The notes: generated from the sequence alone by a model not told the origin. A stretch of DNA of 64,000 nt from an uncultured delta proteobacterium (GCA_903875445.1 CAIQWD010000056.1:50003-114002); one strand, 5' to 3'; positions 4,256-25,832 are shown, counted from the stretch's first letter. Made by a program: numbers and translations.

Positions 4256-4279
4256 GGAGCGTTTTTCGGGCAATTGTCC

Positions 4280-4699: not shown

Positions 4700-4749
4700 A
4701 GTTACATCCTGTTTATTGTGCTTTTCCGGGCATCTTGTCGACACAGCCC

Positions 4750-6555: not shown

Positions 6556-6604
6556 CAATGGCTCTCTCCATCTCTTATGCCGTTCCGGCATTCCTACTGC
6601 CATG

Positions 6605-7897: not shown

Positions 7898-7948
7898 GCT
7901 CTTGTTATTAAAAGATTTTCTTTGTTTTTAATGTCTTTGCGCCTTGGC

Positions 7949-8929
7949 CTATTCGTCTGCCGCCAGAAGATGCAGCCCCCTTACCAACAAATAGGTGACG
8001 ATGAGGGAGAAGACAATCCTTCCCCACAGAATCCCCCCGAATTTTCCGCCTATCGCCGCCATGATGAGGGTGTCCTCCACCAATCCATGACAGAGCCCCA
8101 TCAGCGCCATGGAGTTAAAAACCTCTTCCTTGGCCAGTTTGCCGGTACTGGTCTCCCGGATAATCAATGCCCCACCATAACCGATCCCCATAATCATACC
8201 GACAACAGTGATTGGCGCAGCACGGTGGCTCATACCGAAAAACGGCAGCACGGGAGCCAAGATTTTCTCCAGCAGCCGAAGAAAACCGATGGCCCGAAAG
8301 AGCCGCATGCAAACGACGATAAGGAAGATGACAACAACGATCATTCCCTGGTTCTGTCCCTGATCGAGTCCCCATTGCAGGAGGTCGCCGGACTTGGCAG
8401 TAGCCTTAAATAAGAGCACCGCCGGCTGCTGCCAAAGAGCAAAGGCCAGACAGATGCGATTCAGCAAAAAGCCATAGATAACCGCACCGAGCAGACGGAT
8501 AAGGGCTATCGGTAGAAGCGCTGCCCCAGCCCGTTTGCTGACGCTCAACTCAACAGGTAAGGAGTGGGCAATAAGCATAGCCGAGCAGAGCACGGTCACC
8601 TGAGCGCTGGTAAGCGCAAGCCCCGGCAGCAGGGCGGCAAAGACCGCAATGCCGCCATACATATTGGTCAGCAGGGCGGTTGCCCAGACCAGGCCAAGAG
8701 CACCCGGCAGCCCGAGAACCGCCATCACCGGCTCCAAAACGATGCTCAAGGAGGAAATAAGGCCAAGCTCTTCAAGGATCTTCGTGGCGATGGCGACCGG
8801 AATGGTTATCCGGATGAGTTCCCAACTGGTCAACCACGTTTCGCGGCCAAGCGACTGCGCAAGCTCTTTCAGCTGGTTCCATCGGTTTTTGTAGCAATCG
8901 GTAATCATTAAATAAATATGCTCGATCAA
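7949..8929 (-). CDS. Nucleoside-recognition (Gate) domain membrane protein
   Basis: Inner-membrane protein of about 326 residues with seven to nine hydrophobic segments. It has two Gate-type halves (PVAIATKILEELGLISSLSIVLEPVMAVLGLPGALGLVWATALL and APVLPFFGMSHRAAPITVVGMIMGIGYGGALI). Gate domains occur in nucleoside transporters, spore maturation proteins and FeoB. Stand-alone proteins of this size are usually annotated as nucleoside recognition domain proteins, with unknown substrate. The ORF-track start is TTG at 8929; an ATG at 8908 is an alternative, and neither has a strong ribosome binding site. It lies six bases after the small Cys protein gene, consistent with co-transcription. Confidence 0.8.
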   Translation of the reverse strand: MIEHIYLMITDCYKNRWNQLKELAQSLGRETWLTSWELIRITIPVAIATKILEELGLISSLSIVLEPVMAVLGLPGALGLVWATALLTNMYGGIAVFAALLPGLALTSAQVTVLCSAMLIAHSLPVELSVSKRAGAALLPIALIRLLGAVIYGFLLNRICLAFALWQQPAVLLFKATAKSGDLLQWGLDQGQNQGMIVVVIFLIVVCMRLFRAIGFLRLLEKILAPVLPFFGMSHRAAPITVVGMIMGIGYGGALIIRETSTGKLAKEEVFNSMALMGLCHGLVEDTLIMAAIGGKFGGILWGRIVFSLIVTYLLVRGLHLLAADE

Positions 8930-8934
8930 CTGAG

Positions 8935-9156
8935 TTAGGCCACCCTCGAAGACCCGGAATCGTCATTTTGTCGCTTCTTAGCAGAAAACAACTGACAGTG
9001 CATGCCGGAAGATTCGTACACCACCAGCGCCGGACTGATTCGACTTTTAAATCCCAAAGCCCGGCAGCCGTAAGGTTTGGTCGGGTCGTGGGTGATGAAA
9101 TAATTCATGCATTTTATACAATTTGGTAGTGATTCCATCATCGTTACTAGATCCAC
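8935..9156 (-). CDS. Small conserved Cys protein, unknown function
   Basis: A 60-70 residue protein with a four-Cys pattern: CIKC, a central YGCRALGFKS and a later GMHCQLF. The segment CIKCMNYFITHDPTKPYGCRALGFKSR resembles a family of small uncharacterised proteobacterial proteins that probably bind zinc or an iron-sulfur centre. The start is uncertain: GTG at 9156 (ORF track) or the tandem ATGs a few codons later, and none has a clear Shine-Dalgarno sequence. It is followed after six bases by the Gate-domain membrane protein gene. Confidence 0.65.
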   Translation of the reverse strand: MDLVTMMESLPNCIKCMNYFITHDPTKPYGCRALGFKSRISPALVVYESSGMHCQLFSAKKRQNDDSGSSRVA

Positions 9157-9182
9157 AGCTTCTCGCCTTGTATCACATCCAC

Positions 9183-9689
9183 CTACTTGGGCAGACCGCC
9201 ATGATCTTTGGGGAACCAGAAGAACATGAGTTTGCCGCCCCCTGCCGCCTCGGAGAATCTCTCTGTATCCGAATAATCCAGAGCAACGATACCACAGGTC
9301 GGCACATTGCCGAGAACACGACCGGAAAGATGCCCGGCAAGTTCGCTAATGGTATTGTTATGCCCCACCAGGAAAAGCACATCGACCTGTTCAAGAAGAG
9401 TGGCAATTAAACGACAATAGTAAGTGAACGAGCCCAGGTAGAGGTTCTTATCGTATTGAATAGCATCCTCGTCAAAACCGGTCCCCTCTGCCATCAATCG
9501 GGCGGTTTTCTTTGTTCTGACGGCAGGACTTGCGACAATCAATTCGGGCCGAATTCCGGCGGCAGCAAGCCTTTTAGCCATTGCCACGCCATCATTTTTG
9601 CCGCGATGGTTGAGTGGCCGGTGAAAATCATCGAGACCCGGTTCGGACCAACTAGATTTGCCATGACGAATCAAATACAACCGCTTCAT
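9183..9689 (-). CDS. sixA: SixA-type histidine phosphatase
   Basis: Cytoplasmic histidine-phosphatase superfamily protein of 168 residues. The catalytic RHG motif sits at the N-terminus (YLIRHGKSSWSEPGLDD), a conserved Arg follows (NHRGKNDGVAMAKRL), and a second catalytic His occurs in LVGHNNTISELAGHL. Length and the RHGKS form match SixA, which dephosphorylates histidine phosphotransfer domains in E. coli; other substrates are possible. Its ATG overlaps the stop of a small upstream ORF, suggesting translational coupling. A phosphohistidine phosphatase close to the histidine kinase locus at 9936-15421 is suggestive but not proof of a link. Confidence 0.85.
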   Translation of the reverse strand: MKRLYLIRHGKSSWSEPGLDDFHRPLNHRGKNDGVAMAKRLAAAGIRPELIVASPAVRTKKTARLMAEGTGFDEDAIQYDKNLYLGSFTYYCRLIATLLEQVDVLFLVGHNNTISELAGHLSGRVLGNVPTCGIVALDYSDTERFSEAAGGGKLMFFWFPKDHGGLPK

Positions 9690-9817
9690 TGCCGCTCCCC
9701 TCTATCACTGTCTTGCTCCCAAAGGCCATATTTTTCCTGGGTGTGGTTCCAGGCAAACTGCGCCACCGGCAAGAGAGTTTTACCTGTTTTTATCATATTA
9801 CCGATATATGTCACCAT
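9686..9817 (-). CDS. Possible small ORF coupled to sixA
   Basis: A 43-codon ORF (MVTYIGNMIKTGKTLLP...GLWEQDSDRGERQ) whose TGA overlaps the sixA ATG in the arrangement ATGA. The residue mix looks protein-like, and the same frame stays open upstream into a hydrophobic stretch (FVEILLIGALFSDRCKK) without an obvious start codon there, so the true protein may be longer with a non-standard start. No ribosome binding site is strong and no family was recognised. It is offered as a candidate only. Confidence 0.35.
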   Translation of the reverse strand: MVTYIGNMIKTGKTLLPVAQFAWNHTQEKYGLWEQDSDRGERQ

Positions 9818-9935
9818 TTTCTTGCACCGATCGGAAAAGAGCGCACCGATCAGAAGAATCTCGACAAATAACTGTACACAGCACCAACAGCCCGGCCAGC
9901 TGGGGATAAGAAAAAAACGCTTACCGCACCTGCTC

Positions 9936-11360
<1,425 letters not shown>

Positions 11361-11393
11361 GCTGAAATCCTTGATGAAAGGGTTAGTCGGTGT

Positions 11394-12659
11394 TCAGTCC
11401 CTGTCCTGGTGGGCGGGAAGATAGACAGTGAAGCAGGCACCCTGACCGGGCGTGCTGTCAACCTTGATATAGCCGCCGAAGCTGCGGACGATCCGGTCAA
11501 CGATGGACAGACCGAGCCCCATGCCGGAACCGGTCGCCCTGGTGGTAAAAAATGGATCAAAGATCTTCTCCTGATTGGCCTGGGAGATACCCTCGCCATT
11601 ATCGCACACGGCTATAAGGACAAAGGGTTCTTCCCGCAGGGTCGTAGGATTGATGGAGGCCTTGATGGTCGTGCTGATGGTCAAGCGCGGCTCGGCAATC
11701 TTACCCATGGAAAGAATGGCGTTCTGGATAAGATTGAAAAAGACCTGTTCGAATTTGACCTCCTGCCCCATAACCTCAATAGTCTGCTGGGTATCGAGCT
11801 GCAGATAGAGGCCAATGTCGGAGAGGGTCATCTGCGACTCGAAAAAGTTGAGGATATCGAGAATGATGACGTTGATGTTCACCGGGACCATGGTATCCCT
11901 GGCCTTGCTGGCGAAGCTCTTCAGGCTGTTGATGATGCTTGAGGCCTTGTTCACCCGATCAATGATAATACTGAGATTTTCTTCCAGCATCTTATGGTTT
12001 TTCAGAGGATCCTGCATGGCCTTCAGACCGTTTCTGGCAAGCAGGAGGATGGCATTTAACGGCTGGGTCAATTCGTGGCCGATACCGGCGGCCATTTCTC
12101 CCAGGCTGGCGAGGCGGGCCGAGTGGGTCAGCTGATCCTGAACCTCGCGCATCCTAGCCATCATCTTGTAAAAATCGCTTTTGTCCGAGGCGATAAGCAT
12201 GTGCAGCACCCGTCCCGACTCGGTAACATAGGTTGAACCCTTGAGGGTTACCGGAATCTCCCGACCGCCAACCGCCCGGAGATTGGTCTCGATGATTTGA
12301 AATTCCCCGTCAGCCAGGGCCTCGCGAATCATTGTACAATTTTCCCGATCGACCAGGTCGGATAGATTGAGAGGTTCATTCTTATTGAGGACATAGCCGA
12401 GACAGCGGGTAAATTCGTTGTTACACTGGACCACATACAGATCCTTGTCGAGGAGGAAAAACAACTCGGCCAGGCTCGTGAGAATCTTGTTGGTAAATTC
12501 CTTACCTGCCTGTAGTTCCTCATGTTTTTTCAAAACCCGGATAACCAGATCGGTCTTCTGTTTTTCGAGAAGTTTGACCAGGCTGTTTTCTATGTTTTCC
12601 GGATCTTGCCGTTTGGGCAATTCCTGTTTGCGGTCGTCCACGGATTCCTTCTTTGTCAC
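11394..12659 (-). CDS. PAS-domain sensor histidine kinase
   Basis: Soluble-looking kinase of about 421 residues with no membrane segment. I prefer the GTG at 12659, preceded by GGAG seven bases away; the ORF-track start at 12827 would add residues without support. Domains in order are an N-terminal coiled helix, a PAS fold ([22 protein letters not shown]), a HisKA with phospho-acceptor His in [17 protein letters not shown], and a HATPase with DNGEGI and [18 protein letters not shown] is typical of NtrB/DctB-like kinases that pair with sigma-54 regulators, matching the downstream gene. Being cytosolic, it likely senses an internal redox or metabolite cue. Confidence 0.92.
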
Positions 12660-12847
12660 CTTTTTTCTCCATTGCCCTGATTTTTGCTCGGGACCTGTCA
12701 CCATTTCTGCACATAGTCTATTTCTACGGGAAATACAATAGCATAACTGTTTAAGAGAGTCTTTTCCGGCACCAAAGCTATACAGCCTTGGTCGGTGGTA
12801 TTGGTTATTACGACTCCTACCTATCATATATTCATCTAATATCTATT

Positions 12848-12860
12848 TGTAATAATTACA
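12848..12860. promoter_or_regulatory. Palindrome upstream of the sigma-54 promoter
   Basis: TGTAATAATTACA is a perfect 6-1-6 inverted repeat in the AT-rich divergent region 12660-13006. It ends about 30 bases before the -24 element, so it could be an activator binding site. No factor can be assigned and the position is closer than usual for an enhancer. Confidence 0.35.
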
Positions 12861-12891
12861 TATAATAAAACATTTCCGGAGATTTTCCCTT

Positions 12892-12907
12892 TGGCCCGAA
12901 AGTTGCT
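12892..12907 (+). promoter_or_regulatory. Sigma-54 promoter
   Basis: TGGCCCGAAAGTTGCT matches the -24/-12 consensus TGGCAC-N5-TTGCW at every defined base except one, with exact GG/GC spacing. Transcription would begin near 12918, about 90 bases before the HTH protein gene at 13007. The 347-base divergent region 12660-13006 otherwise holds AT-rich sequence and the palindrome at 12848; no other gene is visible in it. Confidence 0.75.
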
Positions 12908-13006
12908 TTTAATAGTGACAAGGAACTGGTACGGGCCTCTACCGGCACACCGGAACTGTAGGCTGAGGGAAATTTCTAAAAGGTCGCTTGACGGATTCAG
13001 GTTTAA

Positions 13007-13633
13007 ATGATGACGGAAAAGATAAAAAAAGAAGAGCCGCAGGCATTGAGGATCGAACAGGTGGCTCTCCTATGCGGCGTCTCCGTAGCCCGAGTTGACA
13101 ACTGGATCGAGAAAAACGGCCTCAAATTCATTGTCTCGCTAGGAGAGTTAAAGGTACGACAGGAAGATCTCGTAGGGTTTCTCATGCACTACAATATGCC
13201 CATCCCAGGAGGTATCCTGCCTATCAACTCAAAAAAGGTTCTCTTCATCTGTCCCGGCAAAAGAGGCAGAAAGGCCGGAAATAAGTTTTTCCGACTGTTC
13301 TCCGAACAGTTCAGCCGAAAGGCCAACTGCTTCATGGACAGTGTCACATTTGGCAAGGGTGCGGAATATAAAATCCTTACCTTTCTGCCCGATCTCATCC
13401 TGGCGGACGCGGTGAATGGTGACGAAGAGGCGCTGAACGTTATCCGTTTTGTCAAAAGTATCGGCGGCATGCGGGCCGTAGCCCTGGTACGACGTAATCT
13501 GGCCGGGGCGAAAAGGGAGCGGATACTCGCTGCCGGTGCCAATGCGGTGGTGGAACGAAATACGGCCTGGGATGAACTCCTTGCCTGTTTCAACAGGGTC
13601 TTCAACTCCCTCGGCGACAACCCCTCACGGTAG
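13007..13633 (+). CDS. HTH DNA-binding protein with degenerate receiver-like domain
   Basis: Protein of 208 residues. Residues 14-65 form a MerR/excisionase-type helix-turn-helix (LRIEQVALLCGVSVARVDNWIEKNGLKFIVSLGELKVRQEDLVGFL). The remainder resembles a response-regulator receiver (KVLFICPGKRGRKAG, PDLILADAVNGDEEALNVIRFVKS, AAGANAVVERNTAWDELL). The acidic pocket is lost at the N-terminal strand (no DD pair), though an Asp persists in LILADAV. It is therefore probably a pseudo-receiver that responds to a ligand or partner rather than to phosphate. It is the first gene behind the sigma-54 promoter and precedes a sensor kinase. A regulatory role is likely; the target is unknown. Confidence 0.75.
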   Translation: MMTEKIKKEEPQALRIEQVALLCGVSVARVDNWIEKNGLKFIVSLGELKVRQEDLVGFLMHYNMPIPGGILPINSKKVLFICPGKRGRKAGNKFFRLFSEQFSRKANCFMDSVTFGKGAEYKILTFLPDLILADAVNGDEEALNVIRFVKSIGGMRAVALVRRNLAGAKRERILAAGANAVVERNTAWDELLACFNRVFNSLGDNPSR

Positions 13634-13708
13634 CTGGTCGGGTTGCGCAGTTTTTAATAACATAACAGATTTTTACAAACAGTTCCAAGCAGATAAGAGC
13701 GAAGCCGA

Positions 13709-15421
13709 ATGGAAACCACCCAATACAAAAGAGTCTGGCTGCGATTGACCGGGGTCTTTTGTCTTCTCATCACCGTGCCGGTGGCGATTCTGGTTCTGGT
13801 TACCACCAATAGCCTGAGGGATGCGGCGATCAACAAGATCGAGGTATCTCTTGGCCGGCTCATCGAACACAAAAGGGATGTGGTCAACCTTTTTTTGAAA
13901 GAAAAAGAAGATCTCCTCACCATGATGGTCGGCATGTATCCCATTACCTACCTCGGTCGCCAGGAAAATCTCGACAACCTCTTTATTGCCGTCAATAAAA
14001 CCGGCAGTATAGTCGATCTGCACGTCATTGATTCTTCCGGCAAACAATTGGCCTATGTCGGGCCTTACGCCCAAAGCCTCATCGGCAAAAATTACTATGA
14101 TGCTCAATGGTTTCAGGATGTCCTTATCAACGGTAGCCATGTCAGCGATGTTTTTCTCGGTTTTCGCAATGTCCCCCACTTCATTGTAGCGGTCGCCGAT
14201 CCTCTGAAAACCTATGTGCTGCGGGCAACTATTAACTCGGAACAATTTAATCGACTCCTCCTCAGTTCGCAGATCGGCCCGCACGGCGACTCCTTTATCG
14301 TCAATCGAGAGGGTACCCTGCAAACCCCCAGCCGGGCAGGGCTCAGCGAATTAAACAGTGAAGACAGGCTCTTGCTCGAACACCACGAAGGAACCACCAT
14401 TGTCAAAAGAGATGAAAACGTTGTTGTGCCGGGCGACGACAAGGTCGTGACCGATTTAGGCAAAACGTCGATAGTCAAAAGAGGAGAGAGTATCGTCGCC
14501 ACCAGATGGGTGAAAGACGGCCAGTGGTGCCTCATTGTCAAGGCCTTGATCGAGGATTCGCTCGGGCCATTCTATAAGGTCCGCAATAACATCATCATTG
14601 TCATTATTGTGACAAGTGCTGTCTTCCTAGCCATTGCCGTACTTTTCGCCAACTATTTTCTGCAAAGGATCGAAAAAGAGGATCGCAACAGGGCTGAACT
14701 TGGCCACCAGATGGTACAGATGGAAAAAATGGCGACAGTCGGCAGGCTTGCCACCGGCATCGCCCATGAGATCAACAATCCGCTGCAGATCATTACCAGT
14801 CAGGCCGGTTGGATCGGCGAATTGCTGCCTGAGGAAGAGCCGGACAAGGTCAAACATCTTGAGGAATATCAAAAAGCAATCGAGCAGATCAAGCACCATG
14901 TGCGCCGAGCCGGGACTATTACCCACAGGCTCCTCGGATTTTCTCGCAAGATTTCGGCGGAAAAACAGAATGTCCACCTCAACGAACTGATCGAAGAGAC
15001 CATCTCCTTTGTTGAAAAGGAAGCCGAGTACAACAACGTTTCAATCGTCAGAGAATATACCGAAAATCTCCCCGGCACCATGACCGATGGTCCACAGCTG
15101 CAGCAGGTATTTCTCAATCTCATCAATAATGCGATTGATGAAATCGGCCAGGGCGGGATTATCGAGATCCGCACGGCGATCGAGAGAAACACAAAACTGG
15201 TTGCCGAGTTCGCCGATAATGGCCACGGCATCAAGCCGGAAAACCTGAAAAGAATCTTCGATCCCTTTTTTACCACTAAGGACCCGGGCAAGGGCACCGG
15301 CCTTGGTCTCTATATCAGTTACGACATTGTCAAAAAACTTGGCGGGACAATAAGTGTCGCCAACAGAAACAGCGGGGGTGCGGTCTTTACCATCGTTCTG
15401 CCGATCATCAACGTCGACTAA
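13709..15421 (+). CDS. Cache-type membrane sensor histidine kinase
   Basis: Kinase of 570 residues. One membrane segment (residues 10-35), a periplasmic dCache-like sensor (about 36-290, with [19 protein letters not shown] and [33 protein letters not shown]) and a second membrane segment (295-320) precede the kinase core. The phospho-acceptor is H353 ([16 protein letters not shown]), and the HATPase has FADNGHGI and [10 protein letters not shown]. The sensor contains an unusual insert with Lys/Arg/Val repeats near 230-265 ([29 protein letters not shown]). It probably phosphorylates the receiver protein encoded 63 bases downstream. Cache domains usually bind small organic acids or amines; the ligand is unknown. 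Confidence 0.93.
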
Positions 15422-15484
15422 TCGGCAATCGGGACGAGGGAAGCTTTCGCAAAAAGAAATTATTAACCAAAAAGGAGAAATACC

Positions 15485-15913
15485 GTGAGAGAATTTAATG
15501 TGCTGGTAGTCGACGATGAGCAGGAGTTTCTCGATATCACCGTTAAAAGACTGGAAAAACGAGGGCTGAAGGTGCAGGGGGCCGAAAGTGGCGAAAAGGC
15601 CCTGCAGATCCTTCTGCACAGTTCCACCGACGTCGTTCTGCTCGATGTAAAAATGCCGGGCATAGACGGTATCGAAACCTTGCGTCGTATTCGCAGCATG
15701 AAACCTCTGACCGAGGTGGTGCTGCTGACCGGTCATGCCTCCGTCGACTCGGGAATTGAAGGCATGAAACTGGGCGCCTTTGATTATCTGATGAAACCCA
15801 TCGAACTTGAGCCTCTTCTCGAGAAGCTGGCTGACGCCTACGAAAAGAAACGATTGCATCAGGAAAAAATAGAACAAGCAGAAATTAAGAGGAATATGTC
15901 GAAGCCCGCTTGA
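15485..15913 (+). CDS. Single-domain response regulator
   Basis: A receiver of 142 residues with DD at 10-11, phospho-acceptor D54 (VVLLDVKMPG) and the conserved Lys in YLMKPIE. No output domain is present beyond a short charged helix, so it must act by protein-protein contact or pass phosphate on. The start is GTG with AAAGGAG upstream. It lies between the Cache kinase and the TauE-type transporter, with a hairpin downstream. A close relative, also without an output domain, ends the same operon at 20623-21015. Confidence 0.93.
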   Translation: MREFNVLVVDDEQEFLDITVKRLEKRGLKVQGAESGEKALQILLHSSTDVVLLDVKMPGIDGIETLRRIRSMKPLTEVVLLTGHASVDSGIEGMKLGAFDYLMKPIELEPLLEKLADAYEKKRLHQEKIEQAEIKRNMSKPA

Positions 15914-15930
15914 TCCGCCTTCCAGGCGGA
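15914..15930 (+). terminator. Intercistronic hairpin
   Basis: Perfect stem TCCGCCT / AGGCGGA with a three-base loop, just after the receiver gene. Only a short GTATTT follows, so it may be a leaky terminator or an RNA stability element between the signalling genes and the transporter genes. Confidence 0.45.
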
Positions 15931-15988
15931 GTATTTCGAGCTTGATTGTATTCTGTAAATATTACTTTAACTTGAAGAGGAGTGCATT

Positions 15989-17260
15989 ATGAGTTGTTTC
16001 AAAGACTTTTACAACCTGATGGTGCAGGGGTCGCAGGAATATGCCCGCTGGGACCTGGAGATGTCAACCAACATTTTGAAGAGTCGCAAGAGGAAGGGTG
16101 TTCTCCTCCTCATGCTACTGCCGATACTCATCGGTGGCATTGCTATTGCCGCTGGCGACGGGTCCGGATTACCCAGTGTTCTTGGCGGAAAGTCGGCATA
16201 CATGCCGTCCTACTACACCAACTTAATCTTTTTCGCCTCGATCTTTGTCGGGGTTTGCGCCGGTCTTATCACCGGCTGCATCGGCGCCGGTGGCGGTTTC
16301 ATCATCGCCCCCGCTCTGATGAGCGCCGGGGTCAAAGGTATTTTAGCGGTCGGCACCGATCTCTTCCATATCTTTGCCAAGGCGATCATGGGCAGTGTAC
16401 TGCATCGCAAACTCGGCAATATCTCGGTATCGCTGGCAGTGACCTTTCTTGTCGGCTCGCTGGTCGGAGCGACACTCGGCGGCATGCTCAACCGCTACCT
16501 CTATGACCTCAACCCGGTGTTGAGCGATATGTTCATCACTGCGGTGTATGTCTTCATCCTCGGTTTTTTGTCCTTTTATGCCCTCATCGACTACTTCAAG
16601 GCGAGAAGAGGTGAAGCCAAAGGCAAAAAGGTGGTGGAGGGTGAAGAAATCGCGCCGATGGGCAAAAAGGTACAATCGGTACATATCCCGCCGATGCTGA
16701 CCTTCGACGAAGGTGTCACCCCCGGTGGCCGTAAAATTTCGGCAATTTTCCTGGTGGTGGCCGGTCTCATCGTTGGCCTTGCCGCCTCGATCATGGGCGT
16801 CGGTGGTGGTTTTCTTACCTTCCCGATCTTTGTCTACGGCCTCGGCGTCTCGTCGATGACCACCGTCGGTACCGACATTTTCCAGATCGTCTTCACCGCC
16901 GGTTACAGCGCCCTCAGTCAGTACGCCCTCTACGGTTTCGTCTTCTACACCCTGGCCATGGGCATGCTGCTCGGTTCCCTCATCGGCGTACAGATCGGTT
17001 CCCTCGTTACCAAGGTTGTTCCGGGCATCATGATCCGCGGCTTTTTCGCCTTGGCGGTAACAGCCGGTTTTATCAACCGCCTCTTCGCCCTGCCGGAAAA
17101 ACTGCAGAGCCTTGGCATTATCAAGATCACCAAGGAACTTGGCGATCTTTCCAACACGGTAGGCAATGTCTTGTTTTTCATCGTTATCGGTGCCTTTGCC
17201 ATCTGGGTATTCTACGCATTTTTCAGTAATGTTTCCAAATTGAAAACGGAGGGCAACTAA
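15989..17260 (+). CDS. TauE/SafE (TSUP) family transporter
   Basis: Polytopic inner-membrane protein of 423 residues in the sulfite exporter TauE/SafE superfamily. It has the two repeat signatures CAGLITGCIGAGGGFIIAPALMSAGV and VGLAASIMGVGGGFLTFPIFVYGLGV, each followed by a VGTD motif. It is longer than typical TauE because of an N-terminal cytosolic stretch with one extra membrane segment and a central loop of about 70 residues (KARRGEAKGKKVVEGEE). TSUP members export sulfite, sulfoacetate or other organosulfur anions; the substrate cannot be read from sequence. GAGGAG precedes the ATG. The next gene starts two bases after its stop, implying coupled translation with that partner. Confidence 0.9.
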   Translation: MSCFKDFYNLMVQGSQEYARWDLEMSTNILKSRKRKGVLLLMLLPILIGGIAIAAGDGSGLPSVLGGKSAYMPSYYTNLIFFASIFVGVCAGLITGCIGAGGGFIIAPALMSAGVKGILAVGTDLFHIFAKAIMGSVLHRKLGNISVSLAVTFLVGSLVGATLGGMLNRYLYDLNPVLSDMFITAVYVFILGFLSFYALIDYFKARRGEAKGKKVVEGEEIAPMGKKVQSVHIPPMLTFDEGVTPGGRKISAIFLVVAGLIVGLAASIMGVGGGFLTFPIFVYGLGVSSMTTVGTDIFQIVFTAGYSALSQYALYGFVFYTLAMGMLLGSLIGVQIGSLVTKVVPGIMIRGFFALAVTAGFINRLFALPEKLQSLGIIKITKELGDLSNTVGNVLFFIVIGAFAIWVFYAFFSNVSKLKTEGN

Positions 17261-17261
17261 T

Positions 17262-17951
17262 ATGAGCATGCAAGCAAAACTCAAAACCCGCGGCATCATC
17301 ATGCTGCTGACCTTCTTCATCCTCCTGGCGGTCATCTTCAGCCCGGTTTTCCCTGGAAAGATCAATGGTCTTGATTTTATGGACAATCTATTCAATATGA
17401 TCTCCAAAGGTTCATCATACTTCATCCCCGAATCGATGAAGAAAAGTGAAAAGTATGCCGGTAAGACAATCGAGGTTAAACTAAAATTCGACGATGAAAA
17501 AAGGGTGGCCGAGACAGCTAAACAGCTTGCCGGCACTGGTGCACAGGTGACGGCTTCCGGCAAAGATTTGGCAATTAAAGGGGATGTGGGTCAGATTCTC
17601 AAGGCCAGTCTCATTGATTCCGACTTTATGTTCAAAAACGATGGCAAGCCGGTCGCCGAAAAATACGGTTTCTCAGAAAAACAAGCCATGGTCAATTGGC
17701 ATATCTTGTTCAAAAAAATCAGCACCGATCTGACCAAACAGGAGAAGTTTGCGGATGCTAAGCCCTTTGCTGATGTCCAGAAAAAGGCTTTGGAGCCGGC
17801 CTATAACTACTATGGTGTAAAGGCCGAAGACTGGAAGGAAAAAATAGCGATGGTGTGTTTCGCTCTAGCCTTTTATGTGTTCTATACCGTATGGTATGGT
17901 TTTGGACTCATGTACCTCTTTGAGGGACTTGGCCTGAAGATCGGTCATTAA
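17262..17951 (+). CDS. Membrane partner of the TSUP transporter, unknown family
   Basis: Protein of 229 residues with a membrane segment at each end (IIMLLTFFILLAVIFSPVFPG near residues 12-32 and CFALAFYVFYTVWYGFGLMYLF near 198-220). Between them is a soluble loop of about 165 residues (KYAGKTIEVKLKFDDEKRVAETAKQLAGTGAQVTASGKDLAIKGDVGQIL) that probably faces the periplasm. No family was recognised. Translation is likely coupled to the transporter gene two bases upstream, so a stoichiometric complex with it is a fair inference. It is followed by a hairpin and the PEP-synthase-like gene. Confidence 0.8.
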   Translation: MSMQAKLKTRGIIMLLTFFILLAVIFSPVFPGKINGLDFMDNLFNMISKGSSYFIPESMKKSEKYAGKTIEVKLKFDDEKRVAETAKQLAGTGAQVTASGKDLAIKGDVGQILKASLIDSDFMFKNDGKPVAEKYGFSEKQAMVNWHILFKKISTDLTKQEKFADAKPFADVQKKALEPAYNYYGVKAEDWKEKIAMVCFALAFYVFYTVWYGFGLMYLFEGLGLKIGH

Positions 17952-17967
17952 CACCCGGTTCGACAAC

Positions 17968-18008
17968 AGGGCGGGCCAGGTAAGGGATATTTAACCGGGA
18001 CCCGCCCT
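17968..18008 (+). other. Intercistronic inverted repeat
   Basis: AGGGCGGG pairs perfectly with CCCGCCCT across a 25-base interior. No T run follows, so it may stabilise or process the operon mRNA rather than end transcription. It lies between the transporter partner gene and the PEP-synthase-like gene. Confidence 0.5.
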
Positions 18009-18026
18009 TGCTCGAAAGGGTAATAT

Positions 18027-20654
18027 ATGAAGAAGATATTCAATTATTTAAAGTACATATTTTCATCAACTCCCCCAGAGGAGCCTCTCGACCCCGAGGA
18101 ACTCAAGGTAAGTTTCAAGCGCCGTTACGGCAATTTCCGCAGTCTTCTCACCGCCAATAACAACGCTCTGCAGGCCATGGCCGAGCTGGAGAAAATTTAC
18201 TACAGCGGCGATTCCTACCGGATGGCAACGATTCGTTCCAAGGTCACCACCATCCTCGTCAATGTCTATAAAATGGTCCGCAATCTCAGAGAGATGGCGG
18301 ATGGCAGATACCAAGACCTGGAGACGATCTTCGAGCAAATCGGTCACGATCTCGTGGCGATCTTAGAACAAAAACCGGCCCGCCATGAAGGGCCTTTCAT
18401 CCTGCCGCTCGCTGAAATCGGCAGAGGGCAGAGGAGCCAGACCGGCGAGAAGATGGCGAATCTCGGTGAGGTTGCCGCCATCCCCGGTCTTATGGTCCCG
18501 GCAGGCTTTGTCGTCACCGCCTCGGCTACCGGTCATTTTCTTACCACCACTCTGCTCGACGAAATCAATCGCCGCCTGCAGATTCTCGACCCTGACGACC
18601 TTGACCGCCTCTTCCAGACCTGTGAAGAAATAAAAAAAATAGTGAGAGAAAGCCCCCTGCCCCGCGATCTCGAAGAATTGCTGCATGTCCATTACGGTCG
18701 CCTTGAAAAACTGACCCATGCCGGAGTTAAGGTAGCCATGCGCTCAAGCGCCATCGGTGAGGATTCCGCCGGAGTCTCCTTTGCAGGGCTGTATCGCTCG
18801 GTTTTACACATCGACAAGGAGTCCCTTGCCACAGCCTATAAAGAGGTCATTGCCGGAAAATACGGCACCAAGGCCGTCGCCTACAGGCGCAAGCGGGGCT
18901 ACCGCCATGAGGATATCGAGATGTGCGTCGGTTGCATGACCATGATCGACGCCCTAGTCAGCGGAGTAACCTATTCCAGCGATCCTTCCGGCGATGAAAA
19001 CGAGACCATCCGCATCAACGCCGTGTCCGGCCTTGCCACCAGCGTGGTTGATGGCACCAGACCCACCGATCTCTATCTGGTCAGTCGAGTAAAGCCCCAT
19101 ACCCTGGTGTATAGCGAAATCCGCCAGGATCGCGACAATTCGGCAAATCCCCATGCCGCACCCTCTACCCTCACCTATGGCCAACTGAAAAAGCTGGCAG
19201 AGACGGCCATGACGCTCGAGCAGCATTTCGCTGCACCCCAGGATATCGAATGGTCTTTTGATCATCAGGGAAGGCTTTTTATCTTACAGAGCCGGTCGAT
19301 TCCTTTCCATCACCGACAAATCGCCGAGCAACCCAAGGAAATTACGGACGGTGGGGATGGTGGCGAAGAGCCCATTCTCTTCGGAGGGATTTGCGCTTCC
19401 AAAGGTATTGTCTGCGGCGAGGTAATGCGGATCGACTCGGTAACCCAATTACAAAGTTTCCCGCAAGGTGCGGTGTTGCTGGTTGAACATCCGCTGCCGG
19501 AATGGGCGCCCCTGCTTGGTCGAGCGGCGGCATTGATCGCCGGGCATGGCAGCGAGGCCGGGCATCTGGCCACCGTGGCCCGAGAATTTGCCATCCCCGC
19601 TCTCCTTAATCTGCCGGAGGCGCTGACGACCCTCGGTAACGGCCAGACCATCACCGTCAACGCCGCGGCCCGGGCAATTTACAGCGGTTGCCGGGAAGAT
19701 CTGCTGCGAGCCAGGGAGGTAAAAAAAGACATCATGGCCGGCAGCCCGGTACAGCGCCTCGTCACCGAGACCCTGCAGCATATCACGCCGCTCAATCTGA
19801 GCGACCCGGCCTCACACCAGTTTAAATCCAAGTGGTGCGAAACCCTCCACGACATCACCCGGTTTTGCCACGAGAAATCGGTGACCGAGATGTTCAATTT
19901 TGGAGAAAAACACCATTTCCACGAGGGTGCGGCCAAACGGCTGGTCGGCAAGGTGCCACTCGAATGGTGGGTGATCGATCTGGCCGACGGTTTTCAGGAA
20001 GGCGCCGACGTCAGTGGTTCGACGGTGCGGGTCGAGGAAATTGTCTCGGTGCCGATGCAGGCGATCTGGCGCGGCATTTCCGCCTTCCCCTGGGAAGGAC
20101 CACCGCGGGTGAGTATGCGGGGATTCGGGGCCATTATTTTTCAATCGGCCATGCGGCCGGACCTTGATCCGGCGGTAGCCTCGAACCTGACCACTAAAAA
20201 TTATTTTCTCATTTCAAAAAATTTCTGCAATCTCAGCGTCCGTCTGGGGTATCATTACGCGATGATCGAGGCGTATCTCAGCGACCTCCTCACCGAGAAT
20301 TATGTAACTTTTCGTTTCAAAGGAGGGGCAGCGGACATGCGACGCAAGGCGGTGCGGGCAAAACTTTTGGCCGAGATCCTGGAGTCCTTCGATTTCCGTA
20401 TCGAACTGAGGTCCGATGCGCTGCTGGCAAGGATCAAGAAGCGGCCAAGGGGTTTTCTTGAAGAGCGCCTGCAGATCCTTGGGTATCTGACCCTGCACGC
20501 TCGCCAGCTTGATATGGTCATGGACGATCCACACATGGTCGAAAGATATAAGCAAAAATTTCTGACGGACATTGCCGAAATGCTTGCCCGCCGTGATCCA
20601 TTAATCCAAGGAGAGGCTGGAAATGGCGAAGAACAACAAAGTGTTGCTGGTTGA
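18027..20654 (+). CDS. PEP synthase/PPDK-like protein without PEP barrel
   Basis: Cytoplasmic protein of 875 residues. Residues 1-130 are an unrecognised helical region. About 140-425 match the ATP-grasp-like nucleotide domain of PEP synthase/PPDK (VAMRSSAIGEDSAGVSFAGLYRSVL, and EWSFDHQGRLFILQSR at its end). About 452-560 match the swivelling phosphohistidine domain, with likely catalytic H513 in GHLATVAREFAIPAL. The last 300 residues do not resemble the PEP-binding TIM barrel (no GxxxCxxxP-type end) and contain a His/Trp-rich start (CHEKSVTEMFNFGEKHHFHEG). The protein could use ATP to phosphorylate H513 and pass phosphate to an unknown acceptor, somewhat as rifampin phosphotransferase does. 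The receiver gene overlaps its 3' end by 32 bases. Confidence 0.8.
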   Translation: MKKIFNYLKYIFSSTPPEEPLDPEELKVSFKRRYGNFRSLLTANNNALQAMAELEKIYYSGDSYRMATIRSKVTTILVNVYKMVRNLREMADGRYQDLETIFEQIGHDLVAILEQKPARHEGPFILPLAEIGRGQRSQTGEKMANLGEVAAIPGLMVPAGFVVTASATGHFLTTTLLDEINRRLQILDPDDLDRLFQTCEEIKKIVRESPLPRDLEELLHVHYGRLEKLTHAGVKVAMRSSAIGEDSAGVSFAGLYRSVLHIDKESLATAYKEVIAGKYGTKAVAYRRKRGYRHEDIEMCVGCMTMIDALVSGVTYSSDPSGDENETIRINAVSGLATSVVDGTRPTDLYLVSRVKPHTLVYSEIRQDRDNSANPHAAPSTLTYGQLKKLAETAMTLEQHFAAPQDIEWSFDHQGRLFILQSRSIPFHHRQIAEQPKEITDGGDGGEEPILFGGICASKGIVCGEVMRIDSVTQLQSFPQGAVLLVEHPLPEWAPLLGRAAALIAGHGSEAGHLATVAREFAIPALLNLPEALTTLGNGQTITVNAAARAIYSGCREDLLRAREVKKDIMAGSPVQRLVTETLQHITPLNLSDPASHQFKSKWCETLHDITRFCHEKSVTEMFNFGEKHHFHEGAAKRLVGKVPLEWWVIDLADGFQEGADVSGSTVRVEEIVSVPMQAIWRGISAFPWEGPPRVSMRGFGAIIFQSAMRPDLDPAVASNLTTKNYFLISKNFCNLSVRLGYHYAMIEAYLSDLLTENYVTFRFKGGAADMRRKAVRAKLLAEILESFDFRIELRSDALLARIKKRPRGFLEERLQILGYLTLHARQLDMVMDDPHMVERYKQKFLTDIAEMLARRDPLIQGEAGNGEEQQSVAG

Positions 20655-21015
20655 CGACGAGGCCGATTTCCGTGAAATCATGGGCTCTTTTCTCAAACGG
20701 CGGAAAATCGCCTACGAAACCGCGGGTGGATGCATGGAGGCATTAGACTGGCTGGGGCAAGACCACTTCAATGTGGTGGTTATGGACGTGGTCATGCCCG
20801 GCCTCGACGGACTCAAGTGTATGGCCGAAATGAAAAAGCTCCAACCCGAACTGGCGATCATTATCCTCACCGGCAATGCCTCGATCAACACCGGGGTCAT
20901 GAGCATGAAACAGGGGGCCTTCGACTTTTGCATGAAACCGGTCGATTTCGAAGAACTGCTGGAGAGGATCATCCTCGCAGGGGAGAAAAGTGGTTTAAGG
21001 GCAACACCACAGTGA
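20623..21015 (+). CDS. Single-domain response regulator
   Basis: Receiver of 130 residues with DD at 11-12, phospho-acceptor D55 (VVVMDVVMPG), a Thr in IILTGNAS and a Lys in FCMKPVDFEE. No output domain is present. Its ATG lies inside the 3' end of the PEP-synthase-like gene with GGAG upstream, so the two are translationally linked. It is similar in sequence to the receiver at 15485. Its gene end overlaps the 3' end of the opposite-strand stress protein gene by 21 bases. Confidence 0.93.
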   Translation: MAKNNKVLLVDDEADFREIMGSFLKRRKIAYETAGGCMEALDWLGQDHFNVVVMDVVMPGLDGLKCMAEMKKLQPELAIIILTGNASINTGVMSMKQGAFDFCMKPVDFEELLERIILAGEKSGLRATPQ

Positions 21016-21876
21016 GGCCTTATCCAATTTGACAATGAGCTTGGCTGTGGTTCCACCGGCAAGGACCGTTTGCTTTTCCCGCTCCTGCCTTTCCCCTCTC
21101 AGTCCCATGGCTACCGCAGCATAACGGCCCTTACCCAGTTCGCCAAGAATCGTTCCGGCCACCGACAAACCCCAGCTGGTTTTTCTGTTGATCCGTTCTC
21201 GACCGATGGAGTGAGCGTGAAGCAGCGCCTCGGCACGTTGAAATAAGTGGTCTGTTTTGCTGTCCATTCCGATGGCCGCATGGAACAGGGTGATTGTGTG
21301 CTGCTCCTGTCCGGCGAGAATATAGCCGACATGATCAACCGCCCGGAGTGAATTCTCCGAGTTATCGAGGCATACTAGGACGTTTTTCCTTCCCGGTTCG
21401 AGTTCAGGGCAAATCCACAACGGGGTTGTGCAACAACTGTCTTTGATAATCGCCTGGAGGGTTTCGTCGGCCGGACGTTCGAACATCCACTGCAAGGAGT
21501 AAGCCGCCCTCCTCCCGAGGACGATGGCATCATAGAGCCCCCGCGAACCTTCACCGAGAATATCCTTGACCTTGCCGTAACGCTCGGCAAAGGTCTTGGT
21601 CATCATATGCTCTATGGCCATTTTATGCTGACCGAGCATCTCCTTAGCCTTGAAGATCGCCCTCCTCGCCTGAACCGTGACCCGGCCCTCGATACCCTCG
21701 TCCGGGCCCTTCCACATCTGGTTCAAGGTTTTCGCCATTGCGCTGTCGTCGGTCCGGCAGATGTGGAACAGGGTGACCTGCTGCTCCCCGATGGTATTAA
21801 AAAATGAACAGAGGAAGCGGACCCCAAAGAGATGTTCGATATCATTACTTATAGTGACAAGAAAGTGCTTTTTCAT
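20995..21876 (-). CDS. Universal stress protein, two UspA-like domains
   Basis: Protein of 293 residues if started at MKKHFLVTIS (21876); the ORF track uses a TTG 14 codons earlier. The C-terminal half shows a UspA fold (NVLVCLDNSENSLRAVDHVGYILAGQEQHTITLFHA, ending with an ATP-loop-like sequence GLRGERQEREKQTVLAGGTTAKLIVKL). The N-terminal half is a more divergent repeat of the same fold (HFLVTISNDIEHLFGVRFL, DAIVLGRRAAYSLQWMF). Such tandem Usp proteins bind ATP or AMP and modulate stress responses. It follows the acyl-CoA synthetase/GNAT gene on the same strand. Mechanistic role here is unknown. Confidence 0.85.
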   Translation of the reverse strand: MKKHFLVTISNDIEHLFGVRFLCSFFNTIGEQQVTLFHICRTDDSAMAKTLNQMWKGPDEGIEGRVTVQARRAIFKAKEMLGQHKMAIEHMMTKTFAERYGKVKDILGEGSRGLYDAIVLGRRAAYSLQWMFERPADETLQAIIKDSCCTTPLWICPELEPGRKNVLVCLDNSENSLRAVDHVGYILAGQEQHTITLFHAAIGMDSKTDHLFQRAEALLHAHSIGRERINRKTSWGLSVAGTILGELGKGRYAAVAMGLRGERQEREKQTVLAGGTTAKLIVKLDKASLWCCP

Positions 21877-21948
21877 ACGTTCAAGTGTTGTTTGTAATTG
21901 GCAAGGAGAGGCTGCCAACCTGACAAAACCAGCGTCACGAGCCTTCTC

Positions 21949-24636
21949 TCAATCCTCCAGTTCTGCCTTGGCAAGATCAATATCGAGGTCATAGGCCCCC
22001 TCCTCGCTGTTGAACTTCATGGTAAATCCGGCTTTTTTCCCCAGTCGCTGCATCTGGGTATTCTCCCGCAGAACAGTGCCCCAGACCCTCTCCACTCCCT
22101 GCTTCTTGGCTGCCTTCAGGAGATTGACAAGCAAGGCGGCTCCCACTCCCTGCCCATGCCAGGGATCACCGACCATGATGGAAAACTCGGTATGCGACAG
22201 ATCCGGGTCGGCAATGACCCTCGCCACACCCAGCATTTTCTCTGTCGGCGAAGAAAGATCCAAGGCGACCAGAGCGAGATGCCGGTCGTAGTCAACCTGG
22301 GTGAGCATAGCCAACAACTCCGGGGTCAGTGATTTCATGTGGCGAAAGAAGCGATAATAGACACTGGTGGGCGACAGGGTTTTGAACAGCTCGGTAAAGA
22401 GTTCGGCGTCCTCAGGTTGGATGGGGCGAATAGCCAGCCGCAGCCCGCTCCTGGTGGTGGTGCATACTTCATATTGCACTGGATAGGGGCTGATCACCAG
22501 GTGCAAGGGGGACGGTTGCGGCGACGGTCGCAAGAGAATTCGGGCGTCCACCACTACCGGTATACCGTTTTTGACAATCACCGGATTCATGTCGAGTTCG
22601 GCAATTTCCGGAATATCGATCGCCAATTGCGAGAGCTGCAGCAGCATTGCCTCAAGAGCGGCCATATCGATCGGCGCACGGTTACGATAGCCGCTCAGAA
22701 GTTTGGCAACCCGGGTCTCCTCGACAAGCCGGCGAATCAGCAGTCCATTGAGCGGCGGCAGAGCGAGAGCCCGATCGCCGATGATCTCGCTATAAACACC
22801 GCCACTTCCAAACAACAGTACCGGCCCGAAAAGATCGTCCCGCTTGATCCCAAGCAACAGTTCGAAATCGGGCCGGGCAAGATACGGCTGCACGGTGACG
22901 CCCTCAATGCGGGCGTTTTCAGAAACGCGCTTTGCCCCGGCCATGATTCTGGCATAGGCTGCACGCACTTCCCCGGCATCACGCAGATCGAGGTGCACTC
23001 CGTCGGCCTCGGTCTTGTGGGTGATATCCGGTGAGAGGATCTTTAAAGCCACCGGCCAGCCGATCGCCTCTGCCACTGCCACCGCAGCCTCCGGCGAATC
23101 GGCCGTTCGCGTCGGATTGACATGGATGCCGTAGGCCAAAAGAAGCTCTTTGCTCCGCGATTCGCTTAAAAACCCGCCCTCGGCAAGATCGGTCGCCGCG
23201 ACAATCGCCTTTGCCGTCGCCCTATCAAAGAACAGCTGGCGTTGCGATCGCGCTGGAATCTCTTTCAGCATTTCGAGGTTGCGGGTATGCTGGACCAGGG
23301 TCGCAAACGCTTGCACCGCTCGTTCGGGAGTGGCGTAGGTGGCAATACCGGCATCGTTTAGGAACTGTACCGCGCCCGCCACATCCCGACCGCCCATCCA
23401 TACCGCAAAGATGGGGAAAGGCCGTCCTTTCAAATCCTGCACCAGCCGCTTGGCAACCGCCAGGGGATCGGTCAAGGCCTGGGGCAGAAAAATGACCATC
23501 AGGCCATGCAGCTCACCTTCTTTGGAGAGAATTTCCATTACCTGGCCATACCGATCGGCGCTGGCATCGCCCATGATATCCACCGGATTGCTGTGACTCC
23601 AGTGTTGCGGCAGGATCTCATTTAAGGCTTTCAGGGTAGCAGCGCCAAGGACGGCCGGTTCCAAACCATGACGGACCATGGCGTCGACCGCCATGACACC
23701 GGGTCCGCCACCATTGGTCATTACCGCCAGCCGGGGGCCGGCGGGTCGTGGTTGTTTGCCGGTCAATTCGGCACTATCGAACAACTCCTCAATGGTATCA
23801 ACCCGTATCACCCCAGCCCGCCTGAAAGCCGCGTCATAAATGGCATCCTCGCCTGCTAGGGCGCCGGTATGGGAGGAGGCCGCCTTGGCTCCGGCGGCAC
23901 TGCTGCCTGCCTTAAGGACAATGATCGGCTTGATCCGCGATACCGCACGGGCGGCGCTCATGAACCTTCTGATGTTGGAAAGCTGTTCAATGTAGAGAAG
24001 GATGCTTTTCGCCGCCGGCTCTCTGCCCAGGTAGTCGATCATATCACCGATATCAACGTCGAGCATCGAACCGATACTGACGAAATGACTGAACCCGATC
24101 CCCACCTGGAAGGACATATCAAGGATGGCCGTACAGATTCCGCCACTCTGCGAGACAAAGGCCAGATTGCCGAGATTGGGCATATCGGCGGTAAAACTGG
24201 CGTTCAGTTTCGCACAGGGTGCCATGATCCCCAGACAGTTTGGTCCGAGGATGCGGATTCCTCCCGCCAAGGCAGCCCTGCGTATCCGCTCTTCCACCTG
24301 CCGGCCGGCTTCCCCGGTCTCCTTGCCCCCGGAAGAGATGACGATAGCTGCCTTGACACTGGCGGCCGCACATTGGTCGATAATCTCGGGCACCTGGTGA
24401 ATCGGCACTGCCACGACCGCCAGATCTACCTTGGTGTCGACTTCGCCGATAGTAGGTGCGGTCGGTAATCCCATGATCTGCAGATACTTGGGATTGATCG
24501 GCAGCAATCGACCGGTAAAGCCGCCACGGATAAGATTGTGCATCAGGGCCGTACCGATTCGCCCCGGCTGCTCACTGGCACCGATTACCGCAATTGACTC
24601 CGGATGAAAGAACTTATCGAGATTCCGGATACCCAT
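21949..24636 (-). CDS. ADP-forming acyl-CoA synthetase-like / GNAT acetyltransferase fusion
   Basis: About 895 residues. Domain order is CoA-binding Rossmann (SIAVIGASEQPGRIG), succinyl-CoA ligase-like alpha domain, ATP-grasp beta domain (around GWPVALKILSPDITHKTEADGV) and a C-terminal GNAT domain (about 740-895; HLALVALDLSSPTEKMLGVARVIADPD, GDPWHGQGVGAALLVNL). This is the layout of the protein lysine acetyltransferase Pat/PatZ, which acetylates and silences acyl-CoA synthetases. The phospho-acceptor His of ADP-forming synthetases appears intact (H256 in SSHTGALAG), so synthetase activity is possible. I chose ATG 24636 with GAGAG upstream; the ORF-track GTG at 24648 overlaps the argJ stop. 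It appears to be in an operon with argJ. Confidence 0.88.
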   Translation of the reverse strand: MGIRNLDKFFHPESIAVIGASEQPGRIGTALMHNLIRGGFTGRLLPINPKYLQIMGLPTAPTIGEVDTKVDLAVVAVPIHQVPEIIDQCAAASVKAAIVISSGGKETGEAGRQVEERIRRAALAGGIRILGPNCLGIMAPCAKLNASFTADMPNLGNLAFVSQSGGICTAILDMSFQVGIGFSHFVSIGSMLDVDIGDMIDYLGREPAAKSILLYIEQLSNIRRFMSAARAVSRIKPIIVLKAGSSAAGAKAASSHTGALAGEDAIYDAAFRRAGVIRVDTIEELFDSAELTGKQPRPAGPRLAVMTNGGGPGVMAVDAMVRHGLEPAVLGAATLKALNEILPQHWSHSNPVDIMGDASADRYGQVMEILSKEGELHGLMVIFLPQALTDPLAVAKRLVQDLKGRPFPIFAVWMGGRDVAGAVQFLNDAGIATYATPERAVQAFATLVQHTRNLEMLKEIPARSQRQLFFDRATAKAIVAATDLAEGGFLSESRSKELLLAYGIHVNPTRTADSPEAAVAVAEAIGWPVALKILSPDITHKTEADGVHLDLRDAGEVRAAYARIMAGAKRVSENARIEGVTVQPYLARPDFELLLGIKRDDLFGPVLLFGSGGVYSEIIGDRALALPPLNGLLIRRLVEETRVAKLLSGYRNRAPIDMAALEAMLLQLSQLAIDIPEIAELDMNPVIVKNGIPVVVDARILLRPSPQPSPLHLVISPYPVQYEVCTTTRSGLRLAIRPIQPEDAELFTELFKTLSPTSVYYRFFRHMKSLTPELLAMLTQVDYDRHLALVALDLSSPTEKMLGVARVIADPDLSHTEFSIMVGDPWHGQGVGAALLVNLLKAAKKQGVERVWGTVLRENTQMQRLGKKAGFTMKFNSEEGAYDLDIDLAKAELED

Positions 24637-24647
24637 ACCATCTCTCA

Positions 24648-25832
24648 CTACGATCGATAATCGGCATTGATTTTCACGTAATCAAGCGAAAAATCACAGG
24701 TCAAAACCTCCGCACAGGCCTTGCCGTCATATAAATCGATAGTGACGGTAATCTCTTTTTCCTTGAGTACCTTGCTGGCCGCGGCCTCAGCATCCTTTCC
24801 GACCGCGAGGCCGTTTTTAACAATCAGCACATCGCCGAAAGCGATATCGACATGGTCGGGTGAGAATTTCACTCCCGATCGTCCCATGGCCGCGAGAATC
24901 CTGCCCCAGTTGGCGTCTTCGCCAAAAAAAGCGGTTTTAACGAGACTCGAGGTGGCCACGGTTCTGGCGATCTGTTCGGCCTGATCCTCCTCCTTGGCAC
25001 CACACACTCTGATGGTGATGGTCTTGGTTGCCCCCTCGCCATCAGCGACAATCTGCAGAGCGAGGTCTTTCAAGACGAGTTCCAGGGCATTTTGAAAAGT
25101 TTGCCGATCAGCCTCCGAATCACCATCGATCCAAGGATTTTCCGCGGCGCCGTTGGCCATGACCAGAACCATATCGTTAGTACTGGTATCGCCGTCGACG
25201 GTGATGCGGTTAAAGGTGCGCTCGACCCCTTTGACCAGTGATTTATGGAGTTCCGGATAGTTAATGCGCGCATCGGTGACGACAAAGGCCAGCATGGTCG
25301 CCATATTGGGCATGATCATCCCCGCCCCTTTGGCCATTCCCATGATTTTAATTTCCTTCTTGCCGATGGTGACTGTAGTTGAGGCGATTTTCCGAACCGT
25401 GTCGGTGGTCATGATGGCTTTGGCTACCAGTTCGAAATTGTCTGCATTAAGACTCTCGGCGAGCCCGGGAATGCCTTTTTCAAAGGCCGCCAGGTTAAGC
25501 TGTTCGCCGATCACTCCGGTCGAGGCCAGTTGAATCATGGCTTCGGGAATGTTCAGTTTGGCCGCCAGCATCGCACTGGTCAGGCGAGCCGCCTCCATAC
25601 CTTTTTCCCCAGTGCAGGCGTTGGCACAACCGCTGTTGACCAGGATGGCCTGGGCTCGGCCGGCCTTAAGCCGCTCTTTGTCGAGGACAACCGGTGCAGC
25701 CTTGACCTGATTGGTGGTGAACACCCCTGCGGTAACGCAGGGGGTATCGCTTACTATAAGTCCGAGATCCAGCCTATTGGCATAGCGAATGCCGGATTCA
25801 ATGGCGGAAAAAGAAAACCCCTTGATATTCAT
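24648..25832 (-). CDS. argJ: Bifunctional ornithine acetyltransferase/N-acetylglutamate synthase
   Basis: ArgJ of 394 residues, standard length. It recycles the acetyl group from N-acetylornithine to glutamate in arginine biosynthesis and may also make acetylglutamate from acetyl-CoA. The self-cleavage site and nucleophilic Thr lie in KGAGMIMPNMATMLAF (cleavage between Ala and Thr). The conserved VDGDTSTND and the C-terminal SLDYVKINADYRS are present. The next gene begins at or just after its stop, so the two are probably co-transcribed. Confidence 0.96.
   Translation of the reverse strand: MNIKGFSFSAIESGIRYANRLDLGLIVSDTPCVTAGVFTTNQVKAAPVVLDKERLKAGRAQAILVNSGCANACTGEKGMEAARLTSAMLAAKLNIPEAMIQLASTGVIGEQLNLAAFEKGIPGLAESLNADNFELVAKAIMTTDTVRKIASTTVTIGKKEIKIMGMAKGAGMIMPNMATMLAFVVTDARINYPELHKSLVKGVERTFNRITVDGDTSTNDMVLVMANGAAENPWIDGDSEADRQTFQNALELVLKDLALQIVADGEGATKTITIRVCGAKEEDQAEQIARTVATSSLVKTAFFGEDANWGRILAAMGRSGVKFSPDHVDIAFGDVLIVKNGLAVGKDAEAAASKVLKEKEITVTIDLYDGKACAEVLTCDFSLDYVKINADYRS

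Follow-up and report, generated by a model that had tools for sequence, protein, structure and literature searches.

In Desulfovibrio, a 'nitrate cluster' (DVU0251-DVU0245 / Dde_0597-0605) has been studied by Korte et al. 2014 (PMC4001038). Genes DVU0251-DVU0245 encode a TauE permease, a hypothetical protein, a PtxB-like protein, a kinase, a receiver, a PPDK-like protein without the barrel domain, and a phosphatase (PMC4001038). Single insertions in DVU0251, DVU0250, DVU0247 or DVU0246 rendered D. vulgaris fully resistant to nitrate without conferring nitrite resistance, the strongest nitrate phenotype in D. vulgaris Hildenborough (DvH) being that of the insertion in the first gene, which encodes the permease (fitness 11.44); insertion in DVU0245 did not result in nitrate resistance (PMC4001038). 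Since only DVU0245 lies after DVU0246 and the DVU0245 insertion mutant is not resistant, the PPDK-like gene DVU0246 itself appears to be needed for the nitrate phenotype. Mutants of D. alaskensis were described as mildly sick with thiosulfate (cited as unpublished data in PMC4001038), and the authors proposed that the system is a leaky thiosulfate transporter (PMC4001038). Here we describe a seven-gene operon encoding the same kinds of parts, namely two-component proteins, a TauE/SafE-family (TSUP) permease and a PPDK-like phosphotransferase, in a 64,000-nucleotide stretch of DNA from an uncultured delta proteobacterium belonging to Desulfobulbales (GCA_903875445.1, CAIQWD010000056.1:50003-114002; hereafter the window, with positions counted from its first nucleotide). 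We interpret the operon as a widespread and hitherto undescribed variant of the kind of system represented by the Desulfovibrio nitrate cluster.

Both the nitrate cluster and the operon of the window encode a TauE/SafE permease, a small hypothetical protein, a kinase, a stand-alone receiver and a protein with PPDK_N and mobile domains, the small proteins being analogous only. The nitrate cluster differs in having genes for a phosphatase-like protein and for a binding protein of the phosphonate type, whereas the operon of the window has in addition a protein with a helix-turn-helix (HTH) and a pseudo-receiver domain, another receiver and, divergently transcribed, a sigma-54 activator pair. Nitrate resistance is shared by the Desulfovibrio mutants in permease, hypothetical protein, receiver and PPDK-like genes; parts of these kinds therefore work together, with anion transport as the probable target, and the mutants point to the functional link between transporter, receiver and PPDK-like protein that the original prediction put forward (PMC4001038). 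Another described system, the DVU2956-controlled operon DVU2957-2964/2967 (Kazakov et al. 2015, PMC4641369), is similar in its sigma-54 control, divergent enhancer-binding protein and TSUP gene (DVU2958); however, DVU2956 lacks the receiver (REC) domain present in the activator of the window. TSUP (TauE/SafE) transporters are abundant in sulfate reducers (Marietou et al. 2018, PMC5840216), and the permease of the window also belongs to PF01925, but its subfamily is very conserved, ~420 aa in length, and has a membrane partner of its own. Text searches of the open-access literature (subscription papers being outside the search) retrieved no description of a window-type operon. The statement in the original prediction that no described pathway combines these proteins is weakened by the published mutant phenotype of a poorly annotated relative.

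Gene content and distribution of the operon

The seven same-strand genes and the divergent kinase/sigma-54 activator pair that had been predicted were both borne out by open reading frames (ORFs) and Pfam searches. The first gene of the operon (13007-13633, + strand) encodes a protein with an HTH_17 DNA-binding domain (a weak Pfam match) and a receiver-like domain without the conserved phospho-acceptor. It is followed, on the same strand, by the genes for a membrane dCache histidine kinase (13709-15421), the H-box of which is present in 66/66 homologues, a stand-alone receiver (RR1; 15485-15913), the TSUP permease of 423 aa (15989-17260), its small membrane partner with two transmembrane helices and a soluble middle domain (17262-17951), the PPDK-like phosphotransferase (18027-20654), and a second stand-alone receiver (RR2; 20623-21015), which overlaps the end of the PPDK-like gene. 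Both stand-alone receivers match Pfam REC and, as judged by a residue check, have the DD/D/T/K residues intact. The intergenic gaps are, in order, 75, 63, 75, 1, 75 and -32 bp, and one transcript is plausible because this spacing suits it; the permease gene and that of its partner, originally thought to be linked by two bases, are separated by a single base. Signals for sigma-70 promoters and terminators inside the operon did not exceed the shuffled-sequence level, and no RNA element was found in the operon region. A gene for a Usp-family protein (20995-21918, - strand) converges on the end of the operon and has an orthologue in the same place in L050.

In order to assess conservation of the gene order, 93 genomes of the window's family were searched and 33 loci were read. 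The full seven-gene order is present in 15 of these loci, at least six genes in 25 and at least five in 30, and the notion that the genes rarely occur together, which the original prediction had named as a possible refutation, failed on this comparison. At the level of the phylum, the small membrane protein is encoded in 98/395 genomes, representing 54/246 genera. When named genomes were scanned with the TSUP alignment, at least 539 relatives were obtained; the top 80 include sequences from Desulfobacterota, two Nitrospirae and Rhodocyclaceae/Sulfuritalea, and the set of genes for TSUP, small membrane protein and PPDK-like protein spans Desulfobacterota, Nitrospirae and a few Rhodocyclaceae. 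Among 100 loci found via TSUP or its partner, the partner adjoins TSUP in 95; a stand-alone receiver is present in 76 and a dCache kinase in 62, and in 71 the PPDK-like gene follows downstream in the same orientation. For TSUP, its partner and the PPDK-like protein, pairwise distances are correlated (r 0.83-0.86, not corrected for species phylogeny). The genes in Rhodocyclaceae/Sulfuritalea (L188, L197, L200, L206 and L208) are arranged in the order kinase-TSUP-partner-PPDK. Just 2 of the 200 sampled genomes of Rhodocyclaceae have this set, which suggests that these copies were acquired by transfer from Desulfobacterota.

Nearly all carriers of the small membrane protein have a gene for dissimilatory sulfur metabolism. 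A strong dsrA match was found in 92/97 carriers and in 96/298 non-carriers of the phylum (Fisher p 3.5e-30, relatedness uncorrected), and four of the five carriers without dsrA are incomplete genomes. Outside the phylum, dsrA is present in all eight carriers checked; in the Rhodocyclaceae sample it was detected in 45/200 genomes, including both of those (2/200) that encode the small protein. The association points to dissimilatory sulfur metabolism and to no particular anion.

The PPDK-like protein and the permease

The PPDK-like protein consists of an N-terminal helical extension, an ATP-grasp PPDK_N domain, a swivelling His domain and a conserved C-terminal domain (~residues 590-855). Residues 117-587 match phosphoenolpyruvate (PEP) synthases, and the catalytic H513 as well as R239, E245, D246, E408, Q421 and R423 are invariant in 58 sequences; using a relaxed pattern, the His motif was recognized in 96/101 PPDK-like orthologues. 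Within the C-terminal region (from ~590), H608, D609, R612, H615, G741, H743, G766, G767, R773 and R777 are invariant. Description of the protein as a 'truncated' PPDK, as initially proposed, was rejected, since the gene has its full length and the C-terminal domain that it encodes, a replacement, is conserved across three phyla. The PEP/pyruvate-binding barrel, which was looked for in the C-terminus, is not present, and because another domain takes its place the protein is not classed as a PEP synthase. Neither the residues from ~590 on nor the N-terminal helical extension have Pfam or PDB relatives by sequence. An AlphaFold model of the protein has a mean predicted local distance difference test score (pLDDT) of 83.6, with low confidence in the linkers and the C-terminal tail. 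A Foldseek search with the whole model yielded matches of the PEP synthase, rifampin phosphotransferase, PPDK and ATP-grasp/pyruvate-kinase types, none of which could be assigned to the C-terminal domain. The protein thus shares with PEP synthase, rifampin phosphotransferase and PPDK the ATP-binding and swivelling phospho-His domains and the conserved catalytic residues, but differs from this family in having the conserved C-terminal domain and the N-terminal extension, and no barrel.

Members of the C-terminal-domain family are found in 78/198 genomes of the phylum, a single genome having as many as eleven copies. The PPDK-like family has paired with TSUP permeases more than once, in clusters of the window, L044, L245 and L252 types. 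L044 (G000:C41:34000-53500, positions 2238-15998) is another TSUP cluster in the genome of the window, with a divergent activator/kinase followed by genes for a Usp-like protein, TSUP (327 aa), a periplasmic/membrane protein, a PPDK-like protein, a receiver and two tandem PPDK-like proteins; the middle PPDK-like copy seemingly lacks the ATP-site motifs. Clusters of this type are also present in the Desulfovibrionaceae-like loci L248-L250. Other Desulfovibrionaceae-like loci (L238-L241) contain PPDK-dCache kinase-receiver-PPDK operons without a transporter, that of L238 adjoining a gene for an ATPase of the type III secretion system (T3SS) type. Two loci of the window's genus, L060 and L081, possess two distant PPDK-like genes and two kinase-receiver pairs, which face the TSUP genes.

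The permease matches PF01925 with 125 bits (curated cut-off 32.6) and is more strongly conserved than the other proteins of the operon; there are six TauE matches in the genome of the window. A search by sequence for a solved structural relative of the permease found none, and the small membrane protein has no Pfam family and no PDB fold match (best E 0.23).

Predicted sigma-54 control

Transcribed divergently from the operon are the genes for a REC-AAA+-Fis sigma-54 activator of the NtrC type (9936-11360, - strand; Pfam, with GAFTGA in the translation), the probable regulator of the operon, and for its partner, a soluble PAS-HisKA-HATPase kinase (11394-12659, - strand; Pfam). In about half of the family loci, an orthologue of the activator is likewise encoded divergently from the operon. 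A GTG at 12659, preceded by a GGAG of its own, was preferred as the start of the PAS kinase over the ORF start at 12827; the orthologues are ~410-430 aa long. With this start the intergenic region is therefore ~350 bp. Upstream of the first gene it contains a predicted sigma-54 (-24/-12) promoter, TGGCCCGaaagTTGCT = TGGCCCGAAAGTTGCT (12892-12907, + strand; GG-N10-GC). The pattern TGGCNCG-N4-TTGCW has a single match in the 64 kb window (0.04 expected), at 12892, and a similar site precedes 24/33 orthologous operons (shuffle frequency <=0.035), in support of the near-consensus promoter that had been predicted at this position.

A pattern search in the orthologous regions revealed an enhancer-like site, TGTCACC-ATTTC-TGCACA (TGT-N12-ACA; 12696-12713, + strand), which is a perfect match and lies upstream of the promoter at a distance of ~180 bp; at 12654 there is a weaker copy, which overlaps the start of the PAS kinase gene. 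The pattern TGTYAC-N9-ACA occurs at 23 sites in the 6.3 kb of 14 orthologous intergenic regions (palindromic sites of L073 being scored on both strands) and at 1 site in the remaining 223 kb of DNA, an enrichment weakened as evidence by the derivation of the pattern from the very regions in which it was later counted. Several D. vulgaris activators recognize half-sites TGT / ACA spaced 9, 11 or 12 bp (PMC4641369). Since the site at 12696 is the sole match at <=2 mismatches in the 4.9-Mb genome and conforms to the D. vulgaris half-site spacing, the local activator probably controls the operon of the window and little else. A predicted sigma-54 operon under the divergent kinase/activator pair is thus supported.

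Proposed mechanism and alternative explanations

Taking the locus as a whole, the best explanation appears to be one sigma-54-controlled operon for regulated anion transport, a reading that we consider about equally likely to be right or wrong. Judging from the anatomy of the locus, the PAS kinase and the NtrC-like activator would act through the site near 12696, the bound activator firing the promoter at 12892. The TSUP permease would work with its dedicated membrane partner, and the membrane dCache kinase would signal to the two stand-alone receivers. The conserved residues are consistent with a chemistry in which the PPDK-like protein transfers phosphate from ATP to its swivelling His and on to an acceptor held by the C-terminal domain. 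Receivers and PPDK-like protein would most likely act on transporter activity and not on transcription, and the substrate would most likely be a sulfur oxyanion such as thiosulfate or sulfite. A bolder proposal, which we put forward only tentatively and think less probable, is that a phospho-His protein derived from PEP synthase and equipped with a new acceptor domain gates the TSUP/partner pair jointly with the receivers, as a common form of anion-flux control in dissimilatory sulfur bacteria; this would be a new regulatory principle.

Several observations weigh against regulated anion transport. L060 and L081 retain TSUP and partner without an orthologous PPDK-like gene, and in the Desulfovibrionaceae-like L113-L116 no PPDK-like gene adjoins TSUP and partner. 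Conversely, ~12 PPDK-like loci (Desulfovibrionaceae-like), often with a dCache kinase and a receiver, have no TSUP nearby, such TSUP-absence calls being approximate, as one of the nine sequences behind the general TSUP model, that of L001, was an incorrect ORF. L252, which has the gene order of the nitrate cluster and was used as a stand-in for DVU0251-0245, was equated with it on gene order and size. In favour of a link, its PPDK-like protein is 31% identical to that of the window from end to end. Its kinase, however, is of the sCache/HAMP/PAS type, whereas the kinase of the window has dCache. The TSUP of L252 is remote from, and not orthologous to, that of the window (23% over part of the sequence), and its small protein is unrelated; transfer of function from the nitrate cluster is for these reasons indirect. 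The dsrA association is confounded by phylogeny. Finally, a gene for an ADP-forming acyl-CoA synthetase with a GNAT domain adjoins the operon (21949-24648, - strand), homologues lie near the operon in 9/133 loci, and on the operon strand in L120, L121, L129, L170, L171, L176 and L191; these neighbours could hint at an organic-acid substrate.

An organic anion (acetate, another carboxylate or a sulfonate), tied to energy metabolism, might accordingly be carried instead of an inorganic sulfur oxyanion. However, no acyl-CoA synthetase is found near most loci, and dsrA is common to carriers in three phyla, so that we hold an organic substrate to be unlikely. The PPDK-like protein might, alternatively, phosphorylate and trap a substrate imported by TSUP (ATP to His to substrate), in a single-component analogue of the phosphotransferase system (PTS) that kinases and receivers only regulate. 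Such vectorial phosphorylation would suit the homology of the swivelling His domain to enzyme I and PEP synthase, the resemblance of the architecture, in which the C-terminal acceptor domain is replaced, to that of rifampin phosphotransferase, which phosphorylates a small molecule, and the requirement for TSUP and PPDK-like genes alike in the nitrate sensitivity of Desulfovibrio (PMC4001038). Nitrate and simple sulfur oxyanions are, however, poor phosphate acceptors, and the closest PPDK-like paralogues (L238-L241) occur with kinase and receiver in the absence of a transporter, for which signalling is a better fit; trapping of the substrate therefore seems improbable to us.

The existence of such PPDK-histidine kinase-receiver-PPDK operons without TSUP, together with the place of stand-alone receivers and dCache kinase among the most constant neighbours, argues for a role in signalling alone, with the PPDK-like protein modifying or feeding receivers, kinase or another target and TSUP acting as a sensor or co-sensor and not as a bulk transporter. 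We regard this, too, as a doubtful explanation: it is the first-gene permease insertion that gives the strongest nitrate phenotype in DvH (fitness 11.44; PMC4001038), and TSUP is better conserved than any other protein of the operon. Two-component and TSUP genes are abundant in these genomes, as the six TauE matches in the genome of the window illustrate, and ordinary genes without joint function could have become neighbours by chance. This is very improbable and contradicted by the genome comparison, as the order is kept in tens of genera and is accompanied by the recurrent promoter and enhancer-like sites.

With regulated anion transport as the preferred explanation, the operon makes the control of anion entry in sulfate reducers testable. 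A Desulfovibrio cluster with poor annotation and a striking phenotype thereby joins a large family of operons that are conserved, and a phospho-His protein that is widespread and has a new acceptor domain is singled out for testing. Oil fields are dosed with nitrate to counter souring, and the loss of such genes leads to nitrate resistance in D. vulgaris (PMC4001038).

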